NCBI GenBank assembly: GCA_951812625.1
Contig: CATOSP010000004.1
Span: forward strand, 62,001 to 126,000
Source of the DNA: an uncultured Dehalococcoidia bacterium
GTDB lineage: Bacteria; Chloroflexota; Dehalococcoidia; Lucifugimonadales; UBA3495
Direction of reading: 5' to 3'
Length of the DNA stretch: 64,000 nt
The notes below the pieces were generated by a model. That model had not been told where the DNA came from, did not search any database, and worked only from the letters and a program-made list of their open reading frames with translations. This document shows, one piece after another, positions 2,865-50,271 of this stretch (its first letter is position 1; every line of letters starts with the position of its first letter). Position numbers and translations under genes: made by a program.

Positions 2865-3647
2865 ATGCAACTGGAAGGCAAAGTCGCACTGGTAACCGGA
2901 GGCGCTCGCGGACTGGGCCGCTCCATGGCTTTGGCTTACGCCCGCGAGGGAGCGGACGTCGCCATTGTAGCCCGTACCCCCTCTGAGCTGGACTCTGTCG
3001 GTTCCGAAATTCGCGCCTTGGGCCGCCGTGCCCACACGGTCAACGCCGAACTGACCACCAGCGAGGGCGCGAACCGGGCAGCCGGGGAGACCATCAGCGA
3101 ACTGGGGAAGATAGATATCCTGGTCAACAACGCCGGTGGATACCGTCTATTCACCAACGACCTGACTCACTCGGTTACGGTTTTGGACATCACCGAAGAG
3201 GAGTGGCGGCGGGTCATGGAGTCGAACCTCACCACCACTTTCATGGCCTGCAGGGCGGTCCTGCCCCACATGATGGAGCGTGGCAGTGGCGTCATTGTCA
3301 ACATGACCTCGAAGAACGTGGCCAGCCGGGGCCGTGCCGGGCAGGCGTCCTACGGAGCTGCCAAGGCGGCGGTGGAGCGGCTGAGCGAGTCGTTGGCGGA
3401 CGAGTTGAAGGACTATGGCATCGCCGTCAACATCCTCGACCCCGGCTGGAACCTGACCAGGCCCAACGACGACTACGAGGACGAAGTTCACAAGCGCATG
3501 AGGCTGCCCGACGACATTGCCGAGGTGGCCGTCCACATGGCGCTGCAGATCCCCGAGACTATGACCGGCCAGTTGGTCTCCGCCCCGGAATACGACGAAG
3601 AGCATGGCATAAAACGGCTTTCAGCTTACGAACGGCTCCACGTTTAG
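2865..3647 (+). CDS. Short-chain dehydrogenase/reductase (SDR)
   Basis: The 260-residue classical SDR has the Rossmann nucleotide-binding motif TGGARGLG near residues 11-18, NNAGG near 87-91, and the catalytic YGAAK (Tyr/Lys pair) near 162-166 with an upstream Ser in the VNMTS segment. It should oxidise an alcohol or reduce a carbonyl using NAD(P)(H). The frame is open further upstream to 2628, but the SDR fold begins at this ATG, which is preceded by GGAGAAAGGTG; the upstream extension has no homology-like character. The stop lies 52 bp before a GMC oxidoreductase on the same strand, so the two are probably co-transcribed for sequential oxidation of a hydroxylated compound. The substrate is unknown. 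Confidence 0.85.
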   Translation: MQLEGKVALVTGGARGLGRSMALAYAREGADVAIVARTPSELDSVGSEIRALGRRAHTVNAELTTSEGANRAAGETISELGKIDILVNNAGGYRLFTNDLTHSVTVLDITEEEWRRVMESNLTTTFMACRAVLPHMMERGSGVIVNMTSKNVASRGRAGQASYGAAKAAVERLSESLADELKDYGIAVNILDPGWNLTRPNDDYEDEVHKRMRLPDDIAEVAVHMALQIPETMTGQLVSAPEYDEEHGIKRLSAYERLHV

Positions 3648-3699
3648 CTCCCATCCGGGGAGCCCCGTCCCGATCATCCCTTCCGCAACGAGGAAGAGC

Positions 3700-5307
3700 A
3701 TGAAGTACGACTTCGTCATCGTTGGCGCAGGCTCCGCCGGCAGCATCCTGGCAGCCCGGCTGTCGGAGGACCCCGGGGTGTCGGTGCTGCTACTGGAGGC
3801 CGGCCCGGACTATCCTCAATTTCAGCACCTGCCAGAAGATATCAAGTTCGGATACAACACCGGCGGGAACGCTCCTCCTCTGCGCACATCCGGCGGGCAC
3901 CCGGTTTCATTGTTGGAAAGTCCTCACAACTGGCAGTATGTTGCGCGCGCCACCGAAACGTTCCCGGACATGCCGGTGCCCCGGGGCAAGGTTACCGGCG
4001 GCTCCAGCGCCATCAACTCATCGGCCTTCTATCGTGGAGTTCCCGAGGACTTTGACCACTGGGCCTCGCTGGGGAACGACCTCTGGAGTTTCCGTGAGGT
4101 CTTGCCCTATTTCAGGAAAATCGAGACCGATGTGGACCATCACGACGACTTTCATGGCAGCGACGGTCCCATCTTCGTTCACCACTCCCGGAGGGAAGAC
4201 TGGCATCCGACGCAGGAGGCTTTTTACAACGCCTGCCGGGCTGCCGGGTTTCCCGATTGCCCTGACCACAACAGCCCGGACGCCACCGGGGTGGGACCCG
4301 GCATTACCAACAACCACAACCGGGTCCGCTTCAGCACCGCCCTGGGTTACCTGGAACCGTCCAGGCACCGCCTGAATCTCACCATCCGCTCCGACTGCAC
4401 CGTACTCCAACTGTTGTTCCAGAGGAAGAGGGCTGTCGGCGCCCTGGTCGAGAGCGGCGGAGAGACGTTCACCGTCGAAGCGGAACAGATTATCCTGAGC
4501 GCGGGCGCAATCGGTTCGCCCCAGTTGCTAATGCTGTCTGGGGTCGGGCCAGCGGATCACATGGAAAGTGTGGGAGTCCCCGTAGTCCTGGATTCGCCGG
4601 GGGTGGGCCAGAATCTCAAGGACCATCCCAAACTGTACGTGACCTGGCGGATCAGGGACGGCTACTCCAAGGGTGATGCCCCTGCCCGGGGTGGCGCGAC
4701 CCTGCGTTTCACCGCGCCTGGCTCAGAATACCGGAACGACCTATCCATCGGGATGGCCGCCTTCGTCACACCGCGGGTCAAGACCCTGAGAGTCCCCAAG
4801 GATGGCGAGAGCGAGGCTTCCATTCCCAACCTGGCCGAGATGATGGTAGCCCTACTGCGTCCCGCCAGCCGCGGCGAGTTGAAGCTGAGATCGGCGGACC
4901 CCGACGTTCAGCCCTGGCTGGACTACAACTACCTGAGCGAACCCTTCGACCGTAAGCGTCTGCGCCACGGAGTGCGTCAGGCCCTGCAACTGTCCCGGCA
5001 CGAGGGGCTGAGGGAGTTGCTGGGCGACCGGCTGGAGCCCACCGACCCGGACCTTGTCTCGGATGAGGCGCTGGACGCCTGGATGGTGCGGGAAGCAGTC
5101 ACCTTTTCCCACATATCCGGCACCTGCAAGATGGGGCCGTCATCGGACCCGATGGCCGTGGTGGACCAGCACGGGCGGGTACATGGACTGGAGGGTCTGC
5201 GGGTGACTGACGCATCCATCATGCCGGACCTGGTGCGTGCGCCCATCAACCCGGCGGTGCTGATGCTCGGAGAAAGAATCGCCGACCTGGTCCGACAGGG
5301 TTTCTAA
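3700..5307 (+). CDS. GMC-family FAD-dependent oxidoreductase
   Basis: The 535-residue protein is full length for the choline dehydrogenase/alcohol oxidase (GMC) family. It has the N-terminal FAD dinucleotide fold VGAGSAGSILAARL followed by LLLEAG, GMC signature 1 (PRGKVTGGSSAINSS, near residues 93-107), and GMC signature 2 (GAIGSPQLLMLSG, near 269-281). The C-terminal SHISGTCKMG holds the usual catalytic His, and INPAVLMLGERIA is the terminal FAD-contact segment. GMC enzymes oxidise alcohols to aldehydes or ketones. A ribosome binding site (GAGGAAGAGC) precedes the ATG. It lies downstream of the SDR gene in a likely two-gene operon. Two further GMC genes lie in this window on the opposite strand. 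Confidence 0.92.
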   Translation: MKYDFVIVGAGSAGSILAARLSEDPGVSVLLLEAGPDYPQFQHLPEDIKFGYNTGGNAPPLRTSGGHPVSLLESPHNWQYVARATETFPDMPVPRGKVTGGSSAINSSAFYRGVPEDFDHWASLGNDLWSFREVLPYFRKIETDVDHHDDFHGSDGPIFVHHSRREDWHPTQEAFYNACRAAGFPDCPDHNSPDATGVGPGITNNHNRVRFSTALGYLEPSRHRLNLTIRSDCTVLQLLFQRKRAVGALVESGGETFTVEAEQIILSAGAIGSPQLLMLSGVGPADHMESVGVPVVLDSPGVGQNLKDHPKLYVTWRIRDGYSKGDAPARGGATLRFTAPGSEYRNDLSIGMAAFVTPRVKTLRVPKDGESEASIPNLAEMMVALLRPASRGELKLRSADPDVQPWLDYNYLSEPFDRKRLRHGVRQALQLSRHEGLRELLGDRLEPTDPDLVSDEALDAWMVREAVTFSHISGTCKMGPSSDPMAVVDQHGRVHGLEGLRVTDASIMPDLVRAPINPAVLMLGERIADLVRQGF

Positions 5308-5706
5308 GCTCGACTTCGTACAAAGCGTAGGCAAACCAGGAGTGCAGGGAACCCTCGGACAAAATCACCACAAGGGGTCGAGTATCCCTGTCCTATCCGA
5401 GTCATTGCAACCGTATCGACGAGACCGAGGACCGGCACTGGGGCGCAAGATTGCTGCCGAGGAACGGTATTGGGACCCCGTACGCTCTACTGACGACCAG
5501 GTGGTGACGACGACTGGGTTGCAGTGGGTGAGCCTGGTGCTTCTGACGAGTATCAGGTGATTAGGGCGTATTGGGCGCTGCCAGTTCTGAGGGCGATGGC
5601 ACCGCCCGCCACGACCGGCACAGAACCGGAAGCACAAAATGAAGCGGCGGACCATCCTCTTGGACCAGTCCGCCGCCGTCTGCATGTGTGTCTTGGGCTG
5701 ACCTGG
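5308..5706. other. Intergenic region, 399 bp
   Basis: This stretch lies between the convergent GMC gene (+) and esterase-like gene (-). No credible gene, RNA or strong terminator hairpin was found. Confidence 0.5.
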
Positions 5707-6579
5707 CTACACCAGGTTTTGTTGGATGAACGCGGTCATCTGTTCGAGGGCCTGCTGCGCAACATCCGTGGAAAGGTCCCGCAGTACTCCTTCGCCCTCC
5801 CCTTCGAAGATAGTTACGTGAATCTGCCCACCGGCCTTCCGGTACTGCATGATGAACTCGTCCAGGTCCGGGCGCGGGTGCGCCGCCTCGTAGTTCCGTG
5901 CCAGGCACAGGGTGGGCGGCAGTTCCGTGCGCTCCCCGCGGGCCAGCATTCGTCCCGGAGCAGCTTCTGCCATTGCCTCTTCCGTAACCCAATACATGTC
6001 GTGCATGGCCGCGGTACGCTCGCCAACTGACTCTGGGGGTTTAACATCATCCCGAAGACCCTTGGCGTAATTATATCGACCCAGGGGGTCGATCACCGGG
6101 GAGACCATAATCACGCAGCCCAGGGTGCCATCTACCTCTGTAGCGCCGTTGGCGAGGGACAGCGCAGCGTAGCGGGAATCGTGGGGCCGCATGCCCAGCA
6201 GCATAGCCTGATGGGCGCCGCTGGAGGTGCCCATGGCGCCGACTTTGTCCGAAATGCCGTTCCAGCCTTCGGCGTGAGCCTTGCACCAGCGGATTCCATA
6301 GTGGATGTCGGCCAGGGAGGCAGGGTATGACGCTTCCGGCGGAACGCGAAAGTCTAGGGCTGCCACGATGACTCCGTTCCTGGCCAGCGCTTCGTTGCCG
6401 ACATTGCCGTTCTCACGGTTGCCATTCACCCATGCGCCGCCATGCAACTCGACCATTACCGGAAAGGGTCCGCTGCCCTGGGGTTTGAAGAGGCGCGCCA
6501 GAAAGGGCTTATCACCGTGCCGCAGATATTCCACGTCTTCGATCTGGACTTCGTAGGTAGTCTGTTTGCTGATCGTCAT
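5707..6579 (-). CDS. Alpha/beta-hydrolase fold esterase-like protein (BD-FAE/HSL-like), catalytic His not evident
   Basis: The 290-residue protein has the hormone-sensitive-lipase-type oxyanion motif HGGAW near residues 46-50, a nucleophile elbow GTSSG near 117-121 (Ser119 likely), and DLDEF near 238 as a candidate acidic residue. Relatives usually have GEGHGF or a similar His-containing segment near the C-terminus. The corresponding stretch here reads FEGEGEGVLRD, with Glu where His is expected. The start has a good AAGGAG site. The protein may be a carboxylesterase with a displaced His, or a catalytically impaired relative. It is convergent with the GMC gene and has no operon partner. Confidence 0.78.
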   Translation of the reverse strand: MTISKQTTYEVQIEDVEYLRHGDKPFLARLFKPQGSGPFPVMVELHGGAWVNGNRENGNVGNEALARNGVIVAALDFRVPPEASYPASLADIHYGIRWCKAHAEGWNGISDKVGAMGTSSGAHQAMLLGMRPHDSRYAALSLANGATEVDGTLGCVIMVSPVIDPLGRYNYAKGLRDDVKPPESVGERTAAMHDMYWVTEEAMAEAAPGRMLARGERTELPPTLCLARNYEAAHPRPDLDEFIMQYRKAGGQIHVTIFEGEGEGVLRDLSTDVAQQALEQMTAFIQQNLV

Positions 6580-43333: not shown

Positions 43334-44881
43334 TCACTTCCCCTGCTTGATGAAGTCGGCGACGCGCTCGGCAATCATCATTGCGGTTACGTTGGTGTTG
43401 GCGCGGACGACATCGGGCATTATGGAGGCATCCGCTACGCGAAGGTTGGAGACGCCCCGAACCCGCAGTTGCTGATCGACGACGGCCATGGGGTCGCTGT
43501 CCGTCCCCATCTTGCAGGTGCCGGAGATATGGTATGAGGTGCTGATGTTGCGGCGCAGCCAGCCGTCCAACGCATCGTCGGTCTCCAGGTCACCGGGCGT
43601 GGGTGCGATTATCTCTTCGATGATGGGCTCGTAGGCGTTGTGCTGCAGCAGGGACACGCAGAGCCGGACACTCTCCCGCAGACGCTCGCGGTCCCAGTCC
43701 TCTTCCAGATAGCGGTAGTCCATGCTGGGCGGAGCGTGCGGGTCTGCGGACTCCAGCCGCAACTCGCCCTTGCCCGTCGCCAGGTATAGGCCACAGTTGA
43801 CCGCATGGGCTGGGTTGTCGTCCCGAACCACCGTATTCAGCGATGCCGGCGACAGTATCATGTCGTTCGGGGTGGTTGAACCGGTGGCGGTGTAACGGAG
43901 CCTCAGGGCCCTCATGCCATTGGGGTCCTGGGGAACATCTTCCTTGACCAGGAAACGCACTGACACGTTGGGGTGGTCGCGCATATTCTGGCCAATGCCC
44001 GGCAACTCCACCGCCACTGGAATCCCCTGAGCGTTCAACTGGTCCGCCGGGCCGATCCCCGACAGCATCAACAGTTGCGGGGAAACCACGGCGCCGGCGC
44101 AGAGGATGATCTCGCTGCCCTCAACGACGAAGGTCTCGCTGCCGCTCTCCACCTCGACGCCGACGGCCCGATTGCCTCCTGGCCCGTCTACCAGCACCAG
44201 GCGGTTGACCCGGACGTTGGGTCGGATGGTCAGGTTCAACCGGTGGCGCACCGGGGCGATGTAGGTCAGGGCCATGCTCATACGCACACCGTCAATGTTG
44301 TTCTCCGCCCGTAAGCTGACACCGGTTGACTCAGGGTGGTTAACGTCAGGATGGAAGGGGTATCCGGCGGAGGTGGCAGCCTGAAAAAAGGCCTCCTGAG
44401 ACGCCGGCCAGGTCTCCCGTTGATGATGGCGCACGGGCACAGGGCCATCGGTGCCGTGGAAATCGTCGTGGAAGTCGGCGTCGTTCTCCAGCTTGCGGAA
44501 GTACGGCAGGCAGTCCAAATAGCCCCATCCGTCGTTGCCCCAGGACTCCCAGGTGTCATAGTCGTCGGGTGCGCCGCGGATGAATGTCTGTCCGTTAATT
44601 GCGCTGGAGCCGCCCAGCACCTTGCCTCGGGGCACGGGCATCGGCCCCTGATCCGGCGTGGCCGTCCCGGTGAAGGACCAGTTGTAGGGAGAACCGGCGG
44701 CGCGGGCCTCTAAGTTAACCGTCCCCCAGCCGAGCTTGAGCATGTCGGGCAACTGAGCGAAGTCGGGAAAGTCAGGGCCGGCCTCCAGCAGCAGCACTGA
44801 GAGTCCCGGGTCCTCGGAGAGGCGCGCCGCCACTATGCAGCCAGCCGTGCCGCCGCCGACAACTATCTGATCGTATTTCAT
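43334..44881 (-). CDS. GMC-family FAD-dependent oxidoreductase
   Basis: The 515-residue protein starts MKYDQIVVGGGTAGCIVAAR with LLLEAG after strand 2. It has GMC signature 1 PRGKVLGGSSAINGQTF (near residues 80-96) and signature 2 GAVVSPQLLMLSGIGP (near 255-270). The active-site region is SYHISGTCKMGTDSDPMAVV (His near 455), and NTNVTAMMIAERVADFI closes the FAD site. It is complete. The start at 44881 is chosen over an extension to 44950 because the FAD fold begins there and GAGGGAG lies upstream. Its closest resemblance in the window is to the other two GMC proteins (3700 and 54799). Substrate is probably a primary or secondary alcohol. Confidence 0.92.
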   Translation of the reverse strand: MKYDQIVVGGGTAGCIVAARLSEDPGLSVLLLEAGPDFPDFAQLPDMLKLGWGTVNLEARAAGSPYNWSFTGTATPDQGPMPVPRGKVLGGSSAINGQTFIRGAPDDYDTWESWGNDGWGYLDCLPYFRKLENDADFHDDFHGTDGPVPVRHHQRETWPASQEAFFQAATSAGYPFHPDVNHPESTGVSLRAENNIDGVRMSMALTYIAPVRHRLNLTIRPNVRVNRLVLVDGPGGNRAVGVEVESGSETFVVEGSEIILCAGAVVSPQLLMLSGIGPADQLNAQGIPVAVELPGIGQNMRDHPNVSVRFLVKEDVPQDPNGMRALRLRYTATGSTTPNDMILSPASLNTVVRDDNPAHAVNCGLYLATGKGELRLESADPHAPPSMDYRYLEEDWDRERLRESVRLCVSLLQHNAYEPIIEEIIAPTPGDLETDDALDGWLRRNISTSYHISGTCKMGTDSDPMAVVDQQLRVRGVSNLRVADASIMPDVVRANTNVTAMMIAERVADFIKQGK

Positions 44882-45205
44882 TGGGAAAGCTCCCTCGGTA
44901 AATTTGCGCCATTGTACACGGTTTTTCCCCAACGCCCCGGTCTTCCCCACCTACACGAGAGGCCTGATACAAACGCGACTGTACATGAATTAACTTCGAG
45001 CTTACGGTACAGCCCAAGCCGTCGTTGGACAATCAGCAAGTCGGAACTGTATGGGTCGTGTGTCCTGGAAAGGGCTGCGACAGAGGATTGTTGCGAAGGA
45101 GGGAACCCCTTCGTCCTTTCATTCTTGGACCCGGACCTTGCCCTGGCGGAGACGTCCTGTGGCGACTACATCAAACGTCACGGCACAGACGATGGGAGCA
45201 GGACC
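44882..45205. other. Region of 324 bp between divergent GMC and META-domain genes
   Basis: The frame of the META-domain gene is open back to 44912 but without an ATG that has a ribosome binding site. The part from about 45105 (NPFVLSFLDPDLALAETSCG) could be coding, in which case the gene is longer or has lost its 5' end. Promoters for both genes should be here. Confidence 0.4.
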
Positions 45206-45808
45206 ATGTTTCAGAGCGGGCCGCTGGTGGAGTACAGGTCTGACTGTCCAACCGACCGTGCCTATGCTCAGGACCCATCCCTGCGGACCCTTGGCAGCCT
45301 TCGGGAGTTCGCCGTCCAGAGGGATGGCGAATCGCCGAGACTCATGATGCAGACCTATCTCGGCAAGTTCGCGGCGTTCGAACCCGTGCGCCGGGACACG
45401 CCAGGCATTTTTGATGGAAAATGGACCCTGTGGGCGTTCGGCGAGCTTGAGGTCAATCAACTTCACGGTGCGATTCTAGCCATGGACATGTCGCCTGTGA
45501 TCTCCGGGACGGAGGTCACGGCCAACTTCAGGCCGGCGGGCATAAGCGGCGAGACTTTCTGCGGACCTTACGACTACGTGAACCCGTGGGAGACCATGGT
45601 CAGCACGGACGGTCAGACCGCCACACCGGGCCTGCCCCCATACGAGCGACACGACTGCTCAGAGTTTCGGGACATCTCTGAACAGGAGAAACTTTACTTT
45701 GAGATTCAATCCAGCCTCAAGAAGTTCCGCACGTCCCAGGGGTATCTGATCGCCTACGACCGAGAGGACAGAATCCTCATATTCAGGTCCAGTGAAGACC
45801 GGCTGTAG
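45206..45808 (+). CDS. META/HslJ-like domain protein (5' end uncertain)
   Basis: From ATG 45206 (GGGAGCAGGACC upstream) the product is 200 residues. The second half fits a META (HslJ-like) domain: KWTLWAFGELEVNQL (opening strand), SGTEVTANFRPAGISGETFC followed by GPYDY (in place of the usual S..SGxAGCNxY.G.Y), SEFRDISEQEKLYFEIQSSL (helix) and KFRTSQGYLIAYDREDRILI followed by F. META domains occur in heat-shock and secreted proteins of Gram-negative bacteria. No signal peptide is visible from this start, so the true 5' end may be further upstream or lost. It is followed 197 bp later by a coupled pair of unknown genes. Confidence 0.55.
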   Translation: MFQSGPLVEYRSDCPTDRAYAQDPSLRTLGSLREFAVQRDGESPRLMMQTYLGKFAAFEPVRRDTPGIFDGKWTLWAFGELEVNQLHGAILAMDMSPVISGTEVTANFRPAGISGETFCGPYDYVNPWETMVSTDGQTATPGLPPYERHDCSEFRDISEQEKLYFEIQSSLKKFRTSQGYLIAYDREDRILIFRSSEDRL

Positions 45809-46005
45809 GCCTGTGGGACCATCAAACTTAAGAGCTGGTAACGTTCTACGAGTCACTCCATTTTCGACGCGGTCCGACATGTCCTCTGGCTACACTACTG
45901 AGTCTACAGATTCCAGTTAACGACTCCTCAGACAAACCCTGGAAGCGTCATGGACAGAATGCTACACTGGTGGGCATTATACTCCCTGAATCGCAGGAGG
46001 TTGGC

Positions 46006-47097
46006 ATGGTTGAGTACGGGACCGCGATACACGTAGAGGATTTTGGCCTAGAAGTCGGTACACCGACGGTAAGATCAGTGGGTCCGCTGACCTTCGGGCC
46101 GGAGGGGATACTGTTTGTTGCGGACAATGTAGGGGCAGTCATCTTCGCCATCGACGTTGGCGACTCTAACAATGGCAGACCTCAGTCCGTGGACATGACA
46201 AACTTCGATACCTCCCTGGCGTCCTACCTGGGCTGCTCACGGGATGACTTGGCCATCCGGGACATGGCTGTCCACCCCAGATCGGGCAACGTGTACTTTT
46301 CCGTCATTCGAGGCAGCGGCGACGCTGCACTCCCAGTGATCATCAGAGTCTCCGGCGGCGGAGCGATCAGCGATGTCCCCCTGGAGAACGTGGCCTTTTC
46401 CCAGACAGTGATCACCGACGCGGCGGACAAGGACGACCCGCGCCTGGTCACGCGGGAAAAATTGCGGACGGTGACTGTGACCGATATGTCCTACGTAGAC
46501 GGGCTGCTGCTGGTGGCTGGGACGTCCAACGAGGAGTTCTCCTCCACCCTGCGGCGGATTCCTTTCCCCTTCAACGGAGATGTGGACTCCAACTCGCTGG
46601 AGATCTTCCACGTTTCCCATGGGAAGTACGAGTCGGAGGCTCCCATCCGCGCCTTCGTCCCTTACCAAGGGAACGCCAGCATCCTGGCCAGCTACACTTG
46701 CACGCCGGTGGTTCAGTTCTCCATAGCCGAGTTCGAGCCGGGTAAGAAGGTAATGGGGAAGACCGTCGCCGAGCTGGGCGCCCACAACCGGCCCCTGGAC
46801 CTGGTTTCCTACGAACACGGAGGCTGGGAATACCTGCTGGTGTGCAACGACCGGCATCCCCTTTTCAAGATTGCCTGCAAGGACATCGACGTTCAGGGAC
46901 CGCTGACGGTACCGGATGATTCACTGGACGAAAGTCCGGCCGACCCGGTAACCCCCGGCGTGGGCGTACCCCGGCAGCTGCTGCCCCATGCCGGGGTCAA
47001 GCGCATGGCCAGCCTCAACGGCAGCGGTGTGCTGATGATGCAACAGGACGAGGATGGCAACATCCACCTGCACTCCTATTCTGTGGAGTCGCTGTGA
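46006..47097 (+). CDS. Predicted beta-propeller protein of unknown function (first gene of coupled pair)
   Basis: The 363-residue protein is not assigned to a known family. Repeated strand patterns such as VGPLTFGPEGILFVADNVGA (near residues 25-44), IRDMAVHPRSGNVYFSVIRG (near 84-103), VTDMSYVDGLLLVAG (near 153-167) and PLDLVSYEHGGWEYLLVCN suggest a propeller fold. It has no signal peptide or membrane segment. A conserved-looking Cys pair (YTCTPV near 226 and IACKDID near 293) could bind metal. A very strong site CAGGAGG precedes ATG 46006. The next gene overlaps it by 4 bp (GTGA), which indicates translational coupling and suggests the products act together in fixed ratio. Confidence 0.75.
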   Translation: MVEYGTAIHVEDFGLEVGTPTVRSVGPLTFGPEGILFVADNVGAVIFAIDVGDSNNGRPQSVDMTNFDTSLASYLGCSRDDLAIRDMAVHPRSGNVYFSVIRGSGDAALPVIIRVSGGGAISDVPLENVAFSQTVITDAADKDDPRLVTREKLRTVTVTDMSYVDGLLLVAGTSNEEFSSTLRRIPFPFNGDVDSNSLEIFHVSHGKYESEAPIRAFVPYQGNASILASYTCTPVVQFSIAEFEPGKKVMGKTVAELGAHNRPLDLVSYEHGGWEYLLVCNDRHPLFKIACKDIDVQGPLTVPDDSLDESPADPVTPGVGVPRQLLPHAGVKRMASLNGSGVLMMQQDEDGNIHLHSYSVESL

Positions 47098-48191
47098 CCC
47101 GGTGCCGTCAACTACATCTTGAGTGGCTGGAGCATAGGGGACGTACCTGCCTGAGAGTCCGAGGTTGGGCCGAGTCCGAGTGGCACGGCTTTGGAGTGAT
47201 GGCCAGTGCCCTAGACCGTCGTTTGTCCATCCTGCCGAGCGATGTGCTGGAATCCGGCGTCGACTTCAGGACGGTTCCTACCTTGGCCGGGGAATTAATC
47301 ATGGAGCATGCCTCGGTGTGTTTCGTTCCCCGGTTCCCATTCATGGATGGCACCAGCTACACGCTGTTGGTTTATCCCGACGGTAGGAGCGAAGGCCCCG
47401 AGGCTTGGGCAATCCGACGTCCGTTGCCGCCATCGGCTCCTCACACGGAAGCCCTGGCGATCTACCCGACCGCCGCGGCGCTCCCGGTCAACCTGCTGAG
47501 GATATACGTGCACTTCTCCGGGCCAATGAGCGAGGGCTGGGCAGGCCGGGCCGTAAGGGCCTGCTGTGAGGACACGAGGGAGGTGTTGGAAGAGGCCTTT
47601 TTGCCCCCCGACCCGGAGTTATGGGACCCGGAGCGGCGGCGCTTGACCATGCTCCTGGATCCCGGGCGGATTAAGCGCGGCCTTGCACCCAATCGGGAAG
47701 TCGGCTACCCGTTGGTAGAGGGGGCGACTGTCAAAGTAATCGTCGATACAGAGTTCCGGGACGCCTCGGACCAACCCCTGAAGTCCGCAGTGAAGCGCAG
47801 CTACCGCATCGGCCCAGCTTTGAGGTCGCGGGTCTGTCCGGAACATTGGCGGCTGAAGGCTCCAAAAATCGGCTCTCTGGGCCAGCTGAAGATCCAATTC
47901 GACCGTCCCATGGACCACGCGTTACTGCAACGCGGCCTCACTGTCTGCGATGCCGACGGCGTTCCTGTGCCGGGTCTGGGAGCTCCCGGCGCATCAGAGG
48001 AGAGTTGGCTGTTCACCCCGGACTCACCATGGGGAGAGGGACGTTACCGGCTGCTCGTAGAACCCAGGCTGGAAGACGTTGCCGGGAACTCCCTCCTCCG
48101 CGTGTTCGACCGGGACGTTACCAAGGACGAGCCTCCTCCATTACGGGGCAGACGGGTACGTCTCGATTTTTCCTGCGCCTCAACCCCATAG
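47094..48191 (+). CDS. Protein with two SbsA/Big_5-like Ig domains, translationally coupled partner of the propeller
   Basis: The 365-residue protein starts at GTG 47094, overlapping the preceding stop by 4 bp. An N-terminal region (about residues 1-125) is unrecognised. Two domains with the bacterial Ig-like Big_5/SbsA pattern follow: LPVNLLRIYVHFSGPMSEGW near 130-149 and LGQLKIQFDRPMDHALLQRG near 260-279. Each has an F(S/D).PM motif followed by later strands (ERRRLTMLLDPGRIKRG; SWLFTPDSPWGEGRYRLLVE then DVAGN). Such domains usually sit in secreted proteins, yet no signal peptide is seen, which is odd. Together with the propeller gene this forms a two-gene unit of unknown function. Confidence 0.72.
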   Translation: MTRCRQLHLEWLEHRGRTCLRVRGWAESEWHGFGVMASALDRRLSILPSDVLESGVDFRTVPTLAGELIMEHASVCFVPRFPFMDGTSYTLLVYPDGRSEGPEAWAIRRPLPPSAPHTEALAIYPTAAALPVNLLRIYVHFSGPMSEGWAGRAVRACCEDTREVLEEAFLPPDPELWDPERRRLTMLLDPGRIKRGLAPNREVGYPLVEGATVKVIVDTEFRDASDQPLKSAVKRSYRIGPALRSRVCPEHWRLKAPKIGSLGQLKIQFDRPMDHALLQRGLTVCDADGVPVPGLGAPGASEESWLFTPDSPWGEGRYRLLVEPRLEDVAGNSLLRVFDRDVTKDEPPPLRGRRVRLDFSCASTP

Positions 48192-48594: not shown

Positions 48595-50271
48595 ATGCCC
48601 GAGTTTGATTTGGTTATCCGTGGCGGGACCGTAATCGACGGCACAGGCATTCCCCGCATCCGCGCCGACGTTGGCATCAAGGACGGGCGCGTGGCCATGA
48701 TCAGCGGCCGGATACCTGCTGGCGGCGCCAGGGAGTTGGATGCGAACGGCTGCATCGTGGCGCCGGGGGCGGTAGACCTGCACACTCACTACGATGCGCA
48801 GCTCAACTGGGACCCCTATGCGTCCCTGTCCGGTTGGTTCGGGGTAACCTCCCTGACAGTCGGGCAGTGCGGCTTCGGGTTTGCTCCAACGCGGCCCGAG
48901 GACCGAGAATTGAACATGCGGATGATGAACCGCATCGAGGCGATACCCCTGGAGTCCATGCGCCAAGGGATGCGGTGGGACTGGGAGACATTCCCAGAGT
49001 ACATGGACAGCCTTGACCGCCAGGGGCTGGGGGTAAACGTGGGTGCACTGGTGCCCTTCTCACCCCTGCGCGGCTATGTCTTGGGCATGATCCCGGCCCG
49101 AGAGAGGCCCTCCGTAACCGAGGCCGAATTGAACCAGATGAAGCAGATACTGTACGACTCCATGAAGGCTGGAGCTTTCGGGTTGTCCGCTGACAAGAAC
49201 CTTGAGGACCGGCCGGAGGACGGTAGCTGGTTGCCTAGCCATGTGGCGTCCCCGGAAGAATTCTACGCCTTATCACAGGTTTTGGGGCAATTCGGAGTAG
49301 GGCACCTGGGATGGACCATAGGCATCTCTGACGACCGCGCCGGACAGAGGGAAATGCTGGCTGAAATGGTCCGGATGAGCGGGCGCCCACTGCACGTCGC
49401 CCTCGGGGACGATGAGGGCTACGAGTGGCTGAAAGAGGTCCGGGATGAGGGACTCCCCGTCCTGGCGCAGCAGGGGTCGGTGCCGACCATCGCCGAGTTC
49501 AAGCTCTCCGAGTACAACCTGTTCGACTATATGCCCAACTGGGTGCAGCCGCTCGTTGGCACCAGGGAGGAGCGGATCGCCAAGTTGTCCGAGGACGGTG
49601 TTCGCGAAGGTATGAAGCGCGACGTGATAGAGCGCCCACACGCCAGGACCGACTGGACTCAGGTTCAGGTGGTCGAGGTTGCCTTGGAGAGAAACCTCAA
49701 GTACGAGGGGCTGTCCATCGCCGACATCGCTGAAGCCGAAGGAAAGCACCCGCTGGACGCATTCCTAGACATCGCCCTGGACGAGGACCTGGAAACCGAA
49801 TTCGCGCACCCTGCGGGGGGACAGGGGGACGACGCCCGGGCCGAAAGGCTGTTGGACCCATACGTTCACATTTCAGTATCCGACGGCGGGGCCCACACCA
49901 GGTTCCTGGTCAACAGCGTGTGGCCGGTCTATTTCCTGGGACACTGGATCCGCGACAACGGCCTTATGACCCTGGAGCAGGCCCACCACAAGATGAGCGC
50001 GCTGCCGGCATGGTTCTCCGACATGAAGGGCCGTGGCACTCTGCGCGTCGGCGACTGGGCTGACGTCATGGTCTACAACATGGACGAGTTGGGACTCCTG
50101 TACGACAAGCCGCGGTTCGAGACTGATTTCCCTGGTGGTGAAAAGCGGTTGGTGCAGAAGCCGACCGGGATTCGCTATATCCTGGTCAACGGCACCGTTA
50201 CCTTCGTGGAAAACGAATGCACCGGCGCCCTGCCCGGCAAACTGCTGCGCAGCTATGACATGGTGGGCTAG
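48595..50271 (+). CDS. N-acyl-D-amino-acid deacylase family amidohydrolase
   Basis: The 558-residue amidohydrolase family 3 enzyme has LVIRGGTVIDGTGIPRIRAD at the N-terminus and the first metal motif VDLHTHYDAQLNWDP (His63, His65). It has a family Cys in VGQCGFGFAP (near residue 93), GAFGLSADKN (near 195) and SVSDGGAHTRFL (near 425, Asp ligand). The C-terminal composite sandwich has GTLRVGDWADVMVYNMDELG and RYILVNGTVTFVENECTGAL. Relatives are N-acyl-D-Asp/Glu deacylases and D-aminoacylases; the substrate here is unknown. GGAGGCAACTGT precedes the ATG. A strong terminator hairpin follows. Confidence 0.9.
   Translation: MPEFDLVIRGGTVIDGTGIPRIRADVGIKDGRVAMISGRIPAGGARELDANGCIVAPGAVDLHTHYDAQLNWDPYASLSGWFGVTSLTVGQCGFGFAPTRPEDRELNMRMMNRIEAIPLESMRQGMRWDWETFPEYMDSLDRQGLGVNVGALVPFSPLRGYVLGMIPARERPSVTEAELNQMKQILYDSMKAGAFGLSADKNLEDRPEDGSWLPSHVASPEEFYALSQVLGQFGVGHLGWTIGISDDRAGQREMLAEMVRMSGRPLHVALGDDEGYEWLKEVRDEGLPVLAQQGSVPTIAEFKLSEYNLFDYMPNWVQPLVGTREERIAKLSEDGVREGMKRDVIERPHARTDWTQVQVVEVALERNLKYEGLSIADIAEAEGKHPLDAFLDIALDEDLETEFAHPAGGQGDDARAERLLDPYVHISVSDGGAHTRFLVNSVWPVYFLGHWIRDNGLMTLEQAHHKMSALPAWFSDMKGRGTLRVGDWADVMVYNMDELGLLYDKPRFETDFPGGEKRLVQKPTGIRYILVNGTVTFVENECTGALPGKLLRSYDMVG

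Follow-up and report, generated by a model that had tools for sequence, protein, structure and literature searches.

Quinohemoprotein amine dehydrogenase consists of a beta-propeller subunit and a subunit with Ig-like domains. The gene pair analysed here, in which gene A is predicted to encode a six-bladed beta-propeller and gene B a protein with two Ig-like domains, shares with that enzyme the general idea of a propeller subunit joined to a subunit of beta-sandwich domains. However, the partner subunit of the dehydrogenase has haem c (CxxCH), whereas B is without CxxCH, and among the annotated or Pfam-matched neighbours of the pair, neither a CTQ gamma subunit nor maturation genes were recognised. 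When the propeller is considered alone, the SMP-30/gluconolactonase, DFPase and NHL proteins (SGL, PF08450) have the predicted six-bladed fold in common with A, via matches at Z about 15 and rmsd 3-4, and in SGL-type propellers the loop residues of one face are conserved, as in A. The conserved set of A differs from theirs in having two His, a Cys and a Tyr, and A has a fixed Ig-like partner. The best single fold match of A was 3q6k (Z 17.9, rmsd 3.2, 249 aligned residues), which we take to be the yellow-related salivary protein of Lutzomyia; its identity to A is yet only 9%, and it is not known to have an Ig partner. Many propellers followed, tied near Z 15. Most relatives of B match the Big_5 profile, and the first Ig-like domain of B resembles CopC in its predicted fold, but a fixed propeller partner is foreign to these families.

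The window, i.e. the whole stretch of 64,000 nucleotides that was analysed (G000:C4:62001-126000), belongs to an assembly of 4.03 Mb in which A is present once. Gene A extends from its ATG start at 46006 to the stop codon ending at 47097 (+ strand, 363 aa), and gene B from a GTG start at 47094 to the stop ending at 48191 (+ strand, 365 aa), so that the TGA stop of A and the GTG start of B overlap in a GTGA at 47094..47097. The strong ribosome binding site ascribed to the first gene by an earlier, sequence-only reading is indeed there, as a Shine-Dalgarno stretch AGGAGGT at 45995..46001 (+ strand); the sequence ahead of gene A reads GCAGGAGGTTGGC-ATG, with a GGAGG site. Each of the 17 upstream regions compared has GAGG or GGAGG ahead of A, with the GAGG type in L034. 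The overlap of two full-length genes, likewise part of that reading, is kept in all 16 loci of the family (window and L019-L033) and is also found in L034, which represents a neighbouring family of the same order. Between the window and L019, gene A differs at 45, 35 and 132 sites of codon positions 1, 2 and 3, respectively, and gene B at 94, 70 and 169. Both frames are kept and the differences fall mostly on third codon positions; thus A and B are both real genes, and the observation of the pair is confirmed as more than chance.

The nonamer TGCTACACT (45960..45968, + strand) begins 45-47 nt 5' of the start codon of A in all of the 11 nearest loci (window, L019-L028). In these loci (483,242 bases, both strands) there were 11 copies of TGNTACACT, each of them one of the TGCTACACT sites. 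We read the conserved nonamer as a putative promoter element of the extended -10 type, serving A and B. It sits between A and the end of the upstream ORF, which lies 197 nt before A. On the other side, the next gene, an amidohydrolase starting at 48595, follows about 400 nt past B; it is a recurrent neighbour in eight loci of the family, and no other system recurs there. The GTGA overlap, the conserved upstream element and the distance of the downstream gene suggest that A and B are a bicistronic unit under a promoter of its own. A wider operon around A-B in the window was rejected in view of the gap of about 400 nt after B and the 197 nt before A that hold the putative promoter. In L029, L031, L032 and L033 a TGCTAAACT or TGCTAGAAT-like element was found about 100 nt 5' of A, which suggests a longer 5' leader there than in the nearest relatives of the window.

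When the pairing of both genes was followed across 57 sources (Chloroflexota, Acidobacteriota and plasmids of Pseudomonadota), B came immediately after A in 56 of the 59 places sampled. The three exceptions are L124, where the contig ends, L130, where B has been relocated about 4 kb away onto the opposite strand, and L111, which has an extra A copy without B. In L111, a LodA-like gene (broken in the record) and a tryptophan-halogenase-like flavoprotein gene lie between the two A copies (3517-6491, + strand). Among 99 relatives, A was detected in 17, the own genome counted, and B in 18, namely the same 17 and G035; A was not found in G035 in this search. Named relatives are SAR202, Dehalococcoidia and Chloroflexi metagenome bins. 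Searches with the family profile found A in 3 of 400 Chloroflexota (again with the own genome counted) and in 30 of 396 genomes from the phylum of G099, an Acidobacteriota bin. The spread of the pair is therefore patchy. Among 72,556 plasmid records, A and B were present in the same 11, at 12 places each: nine records of Vibrio, one of Leisingera and one of Mesorhizobium, the last with two copies. Confinement of the pair to SAR202 was rejected, as it also occurs in Acidobacteriota and on plasmids, and so was a viral origin, as one scan of viral contigs found no relative of the pair.

The distances between rows of A and of B correlated with 0.89 (44 pairs), and with 0.74 when the family was left out (33 pairs), compared to a maximum of 0.28 in 2000 permutations; such a correlation is expected for neighbours that are inherited or transferred together. 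Separation of the two genes in related genomes had been named as the outcome that would speak against a coupled pair, and the neighbourhoods instead keep them together. The A protein of L144, a 5 kb contig of a genome (G597) drawn with the Acidobacteriota sample, is 85% identical to the leaderless Mesorhizobium copy, reflecting either transfer or contamination.

In the AlphaFold2 model of A (pLDDT 89.2, pTM 0.90), six blades were counted by manual reading of the DSSP string, and the predicted fold and the fold comparison agree with the beta-propeller proposed from the letters alone. Both propeller enzymes and binders are among its fold neighbours. The 47 members of A gave no Pfam match better than E 0.016 and no NCBIfam match better than 0.0046 (newest models from 2025 and 2026, respectively), and in both libraries the matches were scattered over unrelated families. 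None of the 47 members matched MRJP (PF03022) at E up to 0.1; a search of 98 relative genomes for MRJP gave no match, but its positive control likewise had no match anywhere, so that this genome search is uninformative. For SBP56 (PF05694, selenium-binding protein/methanethiol oxidase) there was no Pfam match in the 47 members either, and hhalign of A against six SBP56 proteins gave 0.1%. PADLOC profiles of anti-phage defence matched none of six A and B proteins (0 families), and in PHROGs the best E was 0.048, for one B, and A had no family. Sequence matches of A in the PDB were weak and spanned about one blade (PkwA, E 0.0059). On the strength of these searches (Pfam, NCBIfam, PADLOC, PHROGs and the PDB sequences), membership in a known family was rejected. 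In the literature covered, which consisted of titles and beginnings of abstracts with most subscription papers outside the coverage, the A-B pair was not named. Altogether, A and B stand as a real two-protein unit that is conserved in three phyla and on plasmids and is undescribed in the libraries searched; its first protein matches no Pfam or NCBIfam family. The suspicion that no standard family fits the propeller is borne out within these libraries, and no characterised operon was hit.

For B, AlphaFold2 predicted (pLDDT 91.4, pTM 0.73) an N-terminal beta domain of about residues 1-113, followed by Ig-like domains of about 117-242 and 245-365, which bears out the Ig-like nature suspected for the second product. 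Residues 117-241 matched CopC 6nfq with Z 10.7 and rmsd 2.1 over 96 aligned of 97 residues, and 117-242 matched SbsC with Z 10.8; for 245-365 the matches were to other Ig-like domains (8q00, Z 10.6; SbsB 4aq1, Z 8.8). B was not taken as a CopC member, since a fold match alone is not membership. As to the more specific description as two Big_5-like domains, 34 of 44 relatives match Big_5 (PF13205) at E up to 0.1 (best 2e-12), and the window's own B scores 17.8 bits, below the Pfam cut-off of 23.6. In NCBIfam, no family matched B better than 0.044. Similarity to artificial ATP-binding proteins (E 0.03-0.06) was weak and taken as chance. Of 32 columns of B that are conserved to at least 90%, only the start Met falls within residues 1-113, and the shorter plasmid-borne B proteins are without the N-terminal domain. 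R183, R192 and K194 in the first Ig-like domain are invariant in 44 of 44 B proteins. Cys residues are found at positions 4, 19, 76, 157, 158, 248, 285 and 361.

Neither protein of the window has a signal peptide, and the N-termini agree with the sequence-only reading on this point. By the N-termini of the relatives, this lack is a matter of lineage: in most of the distant relatives an export signal is found on both A and B, and the exported B often has a lipobox-like Cys. No signal on either protein was found in 23 pairs (window, L019-L034, L069, L111, L112, L119, L144 and the first Mesorhizobium copy), with L020 and L022 counted as leaderless, as the script had flagged A there from far-upstream starts. 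The script found signals on both proteins in 24 pairs, on A only in seven (L118, L122, L125, L129, L137, L138, L139), on B only in one (L134) and on neither in two (L116, L143; A of L116 is cut by the contig end). This home-made script gave false positives (L020, L022) and missed several signals that are plain by eye. Inspected by eye, none of these remaining 10 pairs was clearly discordant, and each complete protein missed by the script has a hydrophobic N-terminal segment. In the A tree the leaderless state (18 of 47 rows) takes two changes, which are forced by supported branches; in the B tree, a rougher tree with several long branches, it also takes two (16 of 44 rows). The changes of A and B fall in the same genomes. 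G693 even carries one pair of each kind, L119 being leaderless and L128 having signals. Since the two signal peptides are present or absent in concert, the unit offers a clean case of a whole protein pair changing compartment. Among the exported versions are pairs in annotated, named plasmid records from Leisingera and Mesorhizobium. The Mesorhizobium ciceri plasmid (L073:11980-20963, + strand) has two A-B pairs, of which one is leaderless and the other has signal peptides.

Seven residues of A, namely D40, H202, H205, E209, Y230, C232 and N281, are identical in all 47 proteins, and by our own DSSP-based assignment of blades all seven lie in loops of one face. Two isolated Cys residues had been noted in A before; the protein has four (77, 232, 280 and 291), of which only C232 is invariant (47/47). 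Among 19 polar residues conserved to at least 90%, 15 are in the B-C and D-A loops, four in strands and none in the A-B and C-D loops. The B-C/D-A loop face is also better conserved overall (mean 2.52 vs 1.84 bits, Mann-Whitney p = 9e-6), with loop positions taken from the DSSP string of the predicted model. The ligand site of propellers is usually on that face. The invariant set matched no known metal-site motif. A is probably an enzyme or a ligand binder with a Cys/His/Glu site; with a Cys, two His and a Glu, this site may hold a metal or use a catalytic Cys on a small molecule. The seven invariant residues offer a small set of targets for testing the function directly.

We favour, at a probability of about one half, an obligate two-protein complex in which A carries the binding or catalytic site and B is its dedicated partner. 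A and B would then be a self-contained unit of two translationally coupled genes, with products that work together as one complex in a single compartment. The site of A would be on the face of the B-C and D-A loops, around H202, H205, E209, C232, Y230, D40 and N281, and the two Ig-like domains of B may hold or cap A. In the exported relatives, the signal peptide of B, often with a lipobox, would be the envelope anchor of the complex. The N-terminal domain of B, missing from the plasmid-borne versions, would be an accessory. In the SAR202-like lineage of the window, we infer that the same complex works in the cytoplasm and is expressed from its own promoter. Against this reading stand the patchy spread of the pair, the lack of a match to a known metal-site motif and the unsteady neighbourhood of the genes. 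A bolder version, that the pair founds an undescribed enzyme family, is put forward only tentatively: it would combine a six-bladed propeller, a new type of metal or catalytic-cysteine site (H-x2-H-x3-E with Cys, Tyr, Asp and Asn on one face) and a dedicated Ig-like partner on which its working would depend, in a complete two-protein module that would have moved at least two times between envelope and cytoplasm.

The conserved face of A could instead be a docking surface for B. If A were a structural or recognition propeller, its invariant face would dock B or a third protein, and the pair would be a surface or envelope scaffold or adaptor, a possible but doubtful alternative. Many propellers bind proteins rather than catalyse, and the basic R183, R192 and K194 of B could face the acidic D40, E177, E199, E209 and E256 of A. 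The Ig-like fold matches of B to the S-layer proteins SbsC and SbsB (Z 10.8 and 8.8) point in the same direction, since such domains are at home in scaffolds. However, an invariant H-x2-H-x3-E together with an invariant Cys and Tyr would be unusual for a mere docking face, and the leaderless lineages have a cytoplasmic pair, which leaves no place for an envelope scaffold.

The Pfam tally of 110 neighbours of the pair gave no steady functional hint, the commonest families having only seven and five members; in the clustering of neighbours, clusters 2-6 and some further ones were set aside as apparent antisense shadows. The adjoining gene at 44912-45808 had been described as encoding a META domain, which was not confirmed: no Pfam family matches it at E up to 1, and it is not conserved, the clustering of 16 related loci having given no relative. 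The GMC oxidoreductase of the window (43337-44950, - strand) scores above the NCBIfam cut-off for the mycofactocin dehydrogenase MftG (403.1 vs 387.45 bits). Near the pair, 9 of 33 Acidobacteriota loci (for example L115:5951-7033, + strand, and L071:10110-11012, - strand) have a gene that encodes squalene-hopene-cyclase-like repeats and a CxSCHNN (haem c-like) motif; in eight of the nine it is convergent and directly behind B. The motif is not seen in the L116 row, which starts later.

Certain neighbours would fit a role of the unit in the handling of quinones or electrophiles, as a partner of quinone-cofactor amine oxidases or as part of a thiol/electrophile detoxification set. In L111 (G283), the extra A stands directly before the LodA-like gene (LodA_N 8.7e-60, LodA_C 2.1e-39), which is followed by the FAD/tryptophan-halogenase-like gene and then by the second A and B. 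A copper amine oxidase (3.9e-164) is encoded upstream in L025, a peroxiredoxin-like gene lies just before A in L144, and the plasmid neighbours include glutathione S-transferases, pirin, an NAD(P)H-dependent oxidoreductase, hemerythrin and a peroxiredoxin-like protein, besides LysR regulators. Yet of 13 genomes screened for LodA_N, mostly carriers of A, a single one had it, and L111 was the sole locus with LodA/B-like proteins; a link of LodA to A-B was rejected as a single case. Moreover, such neighbours are common and plasmids mosaic. We consider this role unlikely.

Least probable of all is that A is a divergent SMP-30/lactonase-like hydrolase with a metal in the propeller centre and B only a co-transcribed accessory. 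In favour of it are the fold matches of A to the lactonase RPA3624 (8djf, Z 15.1), DFPase (1pjx, Z 14.8) and Drp35 (2dg0, Z 14.8) and a weak SGL profile similarity of 2 of 47 A members (best E 0.016). However, these fold matches are tied with many unrelated propellers, the six-bladed fold is shared by many families, and no significant sequence relationship to SGL was found: hhalign of A against 20 SGL proteins reached only 21.6% probability over 74 columns, where a control of one SGL half against the other gave 100%. SMP-30-like propellers as such are abundant in the family; the own genome has eight that match at E 1e-20.
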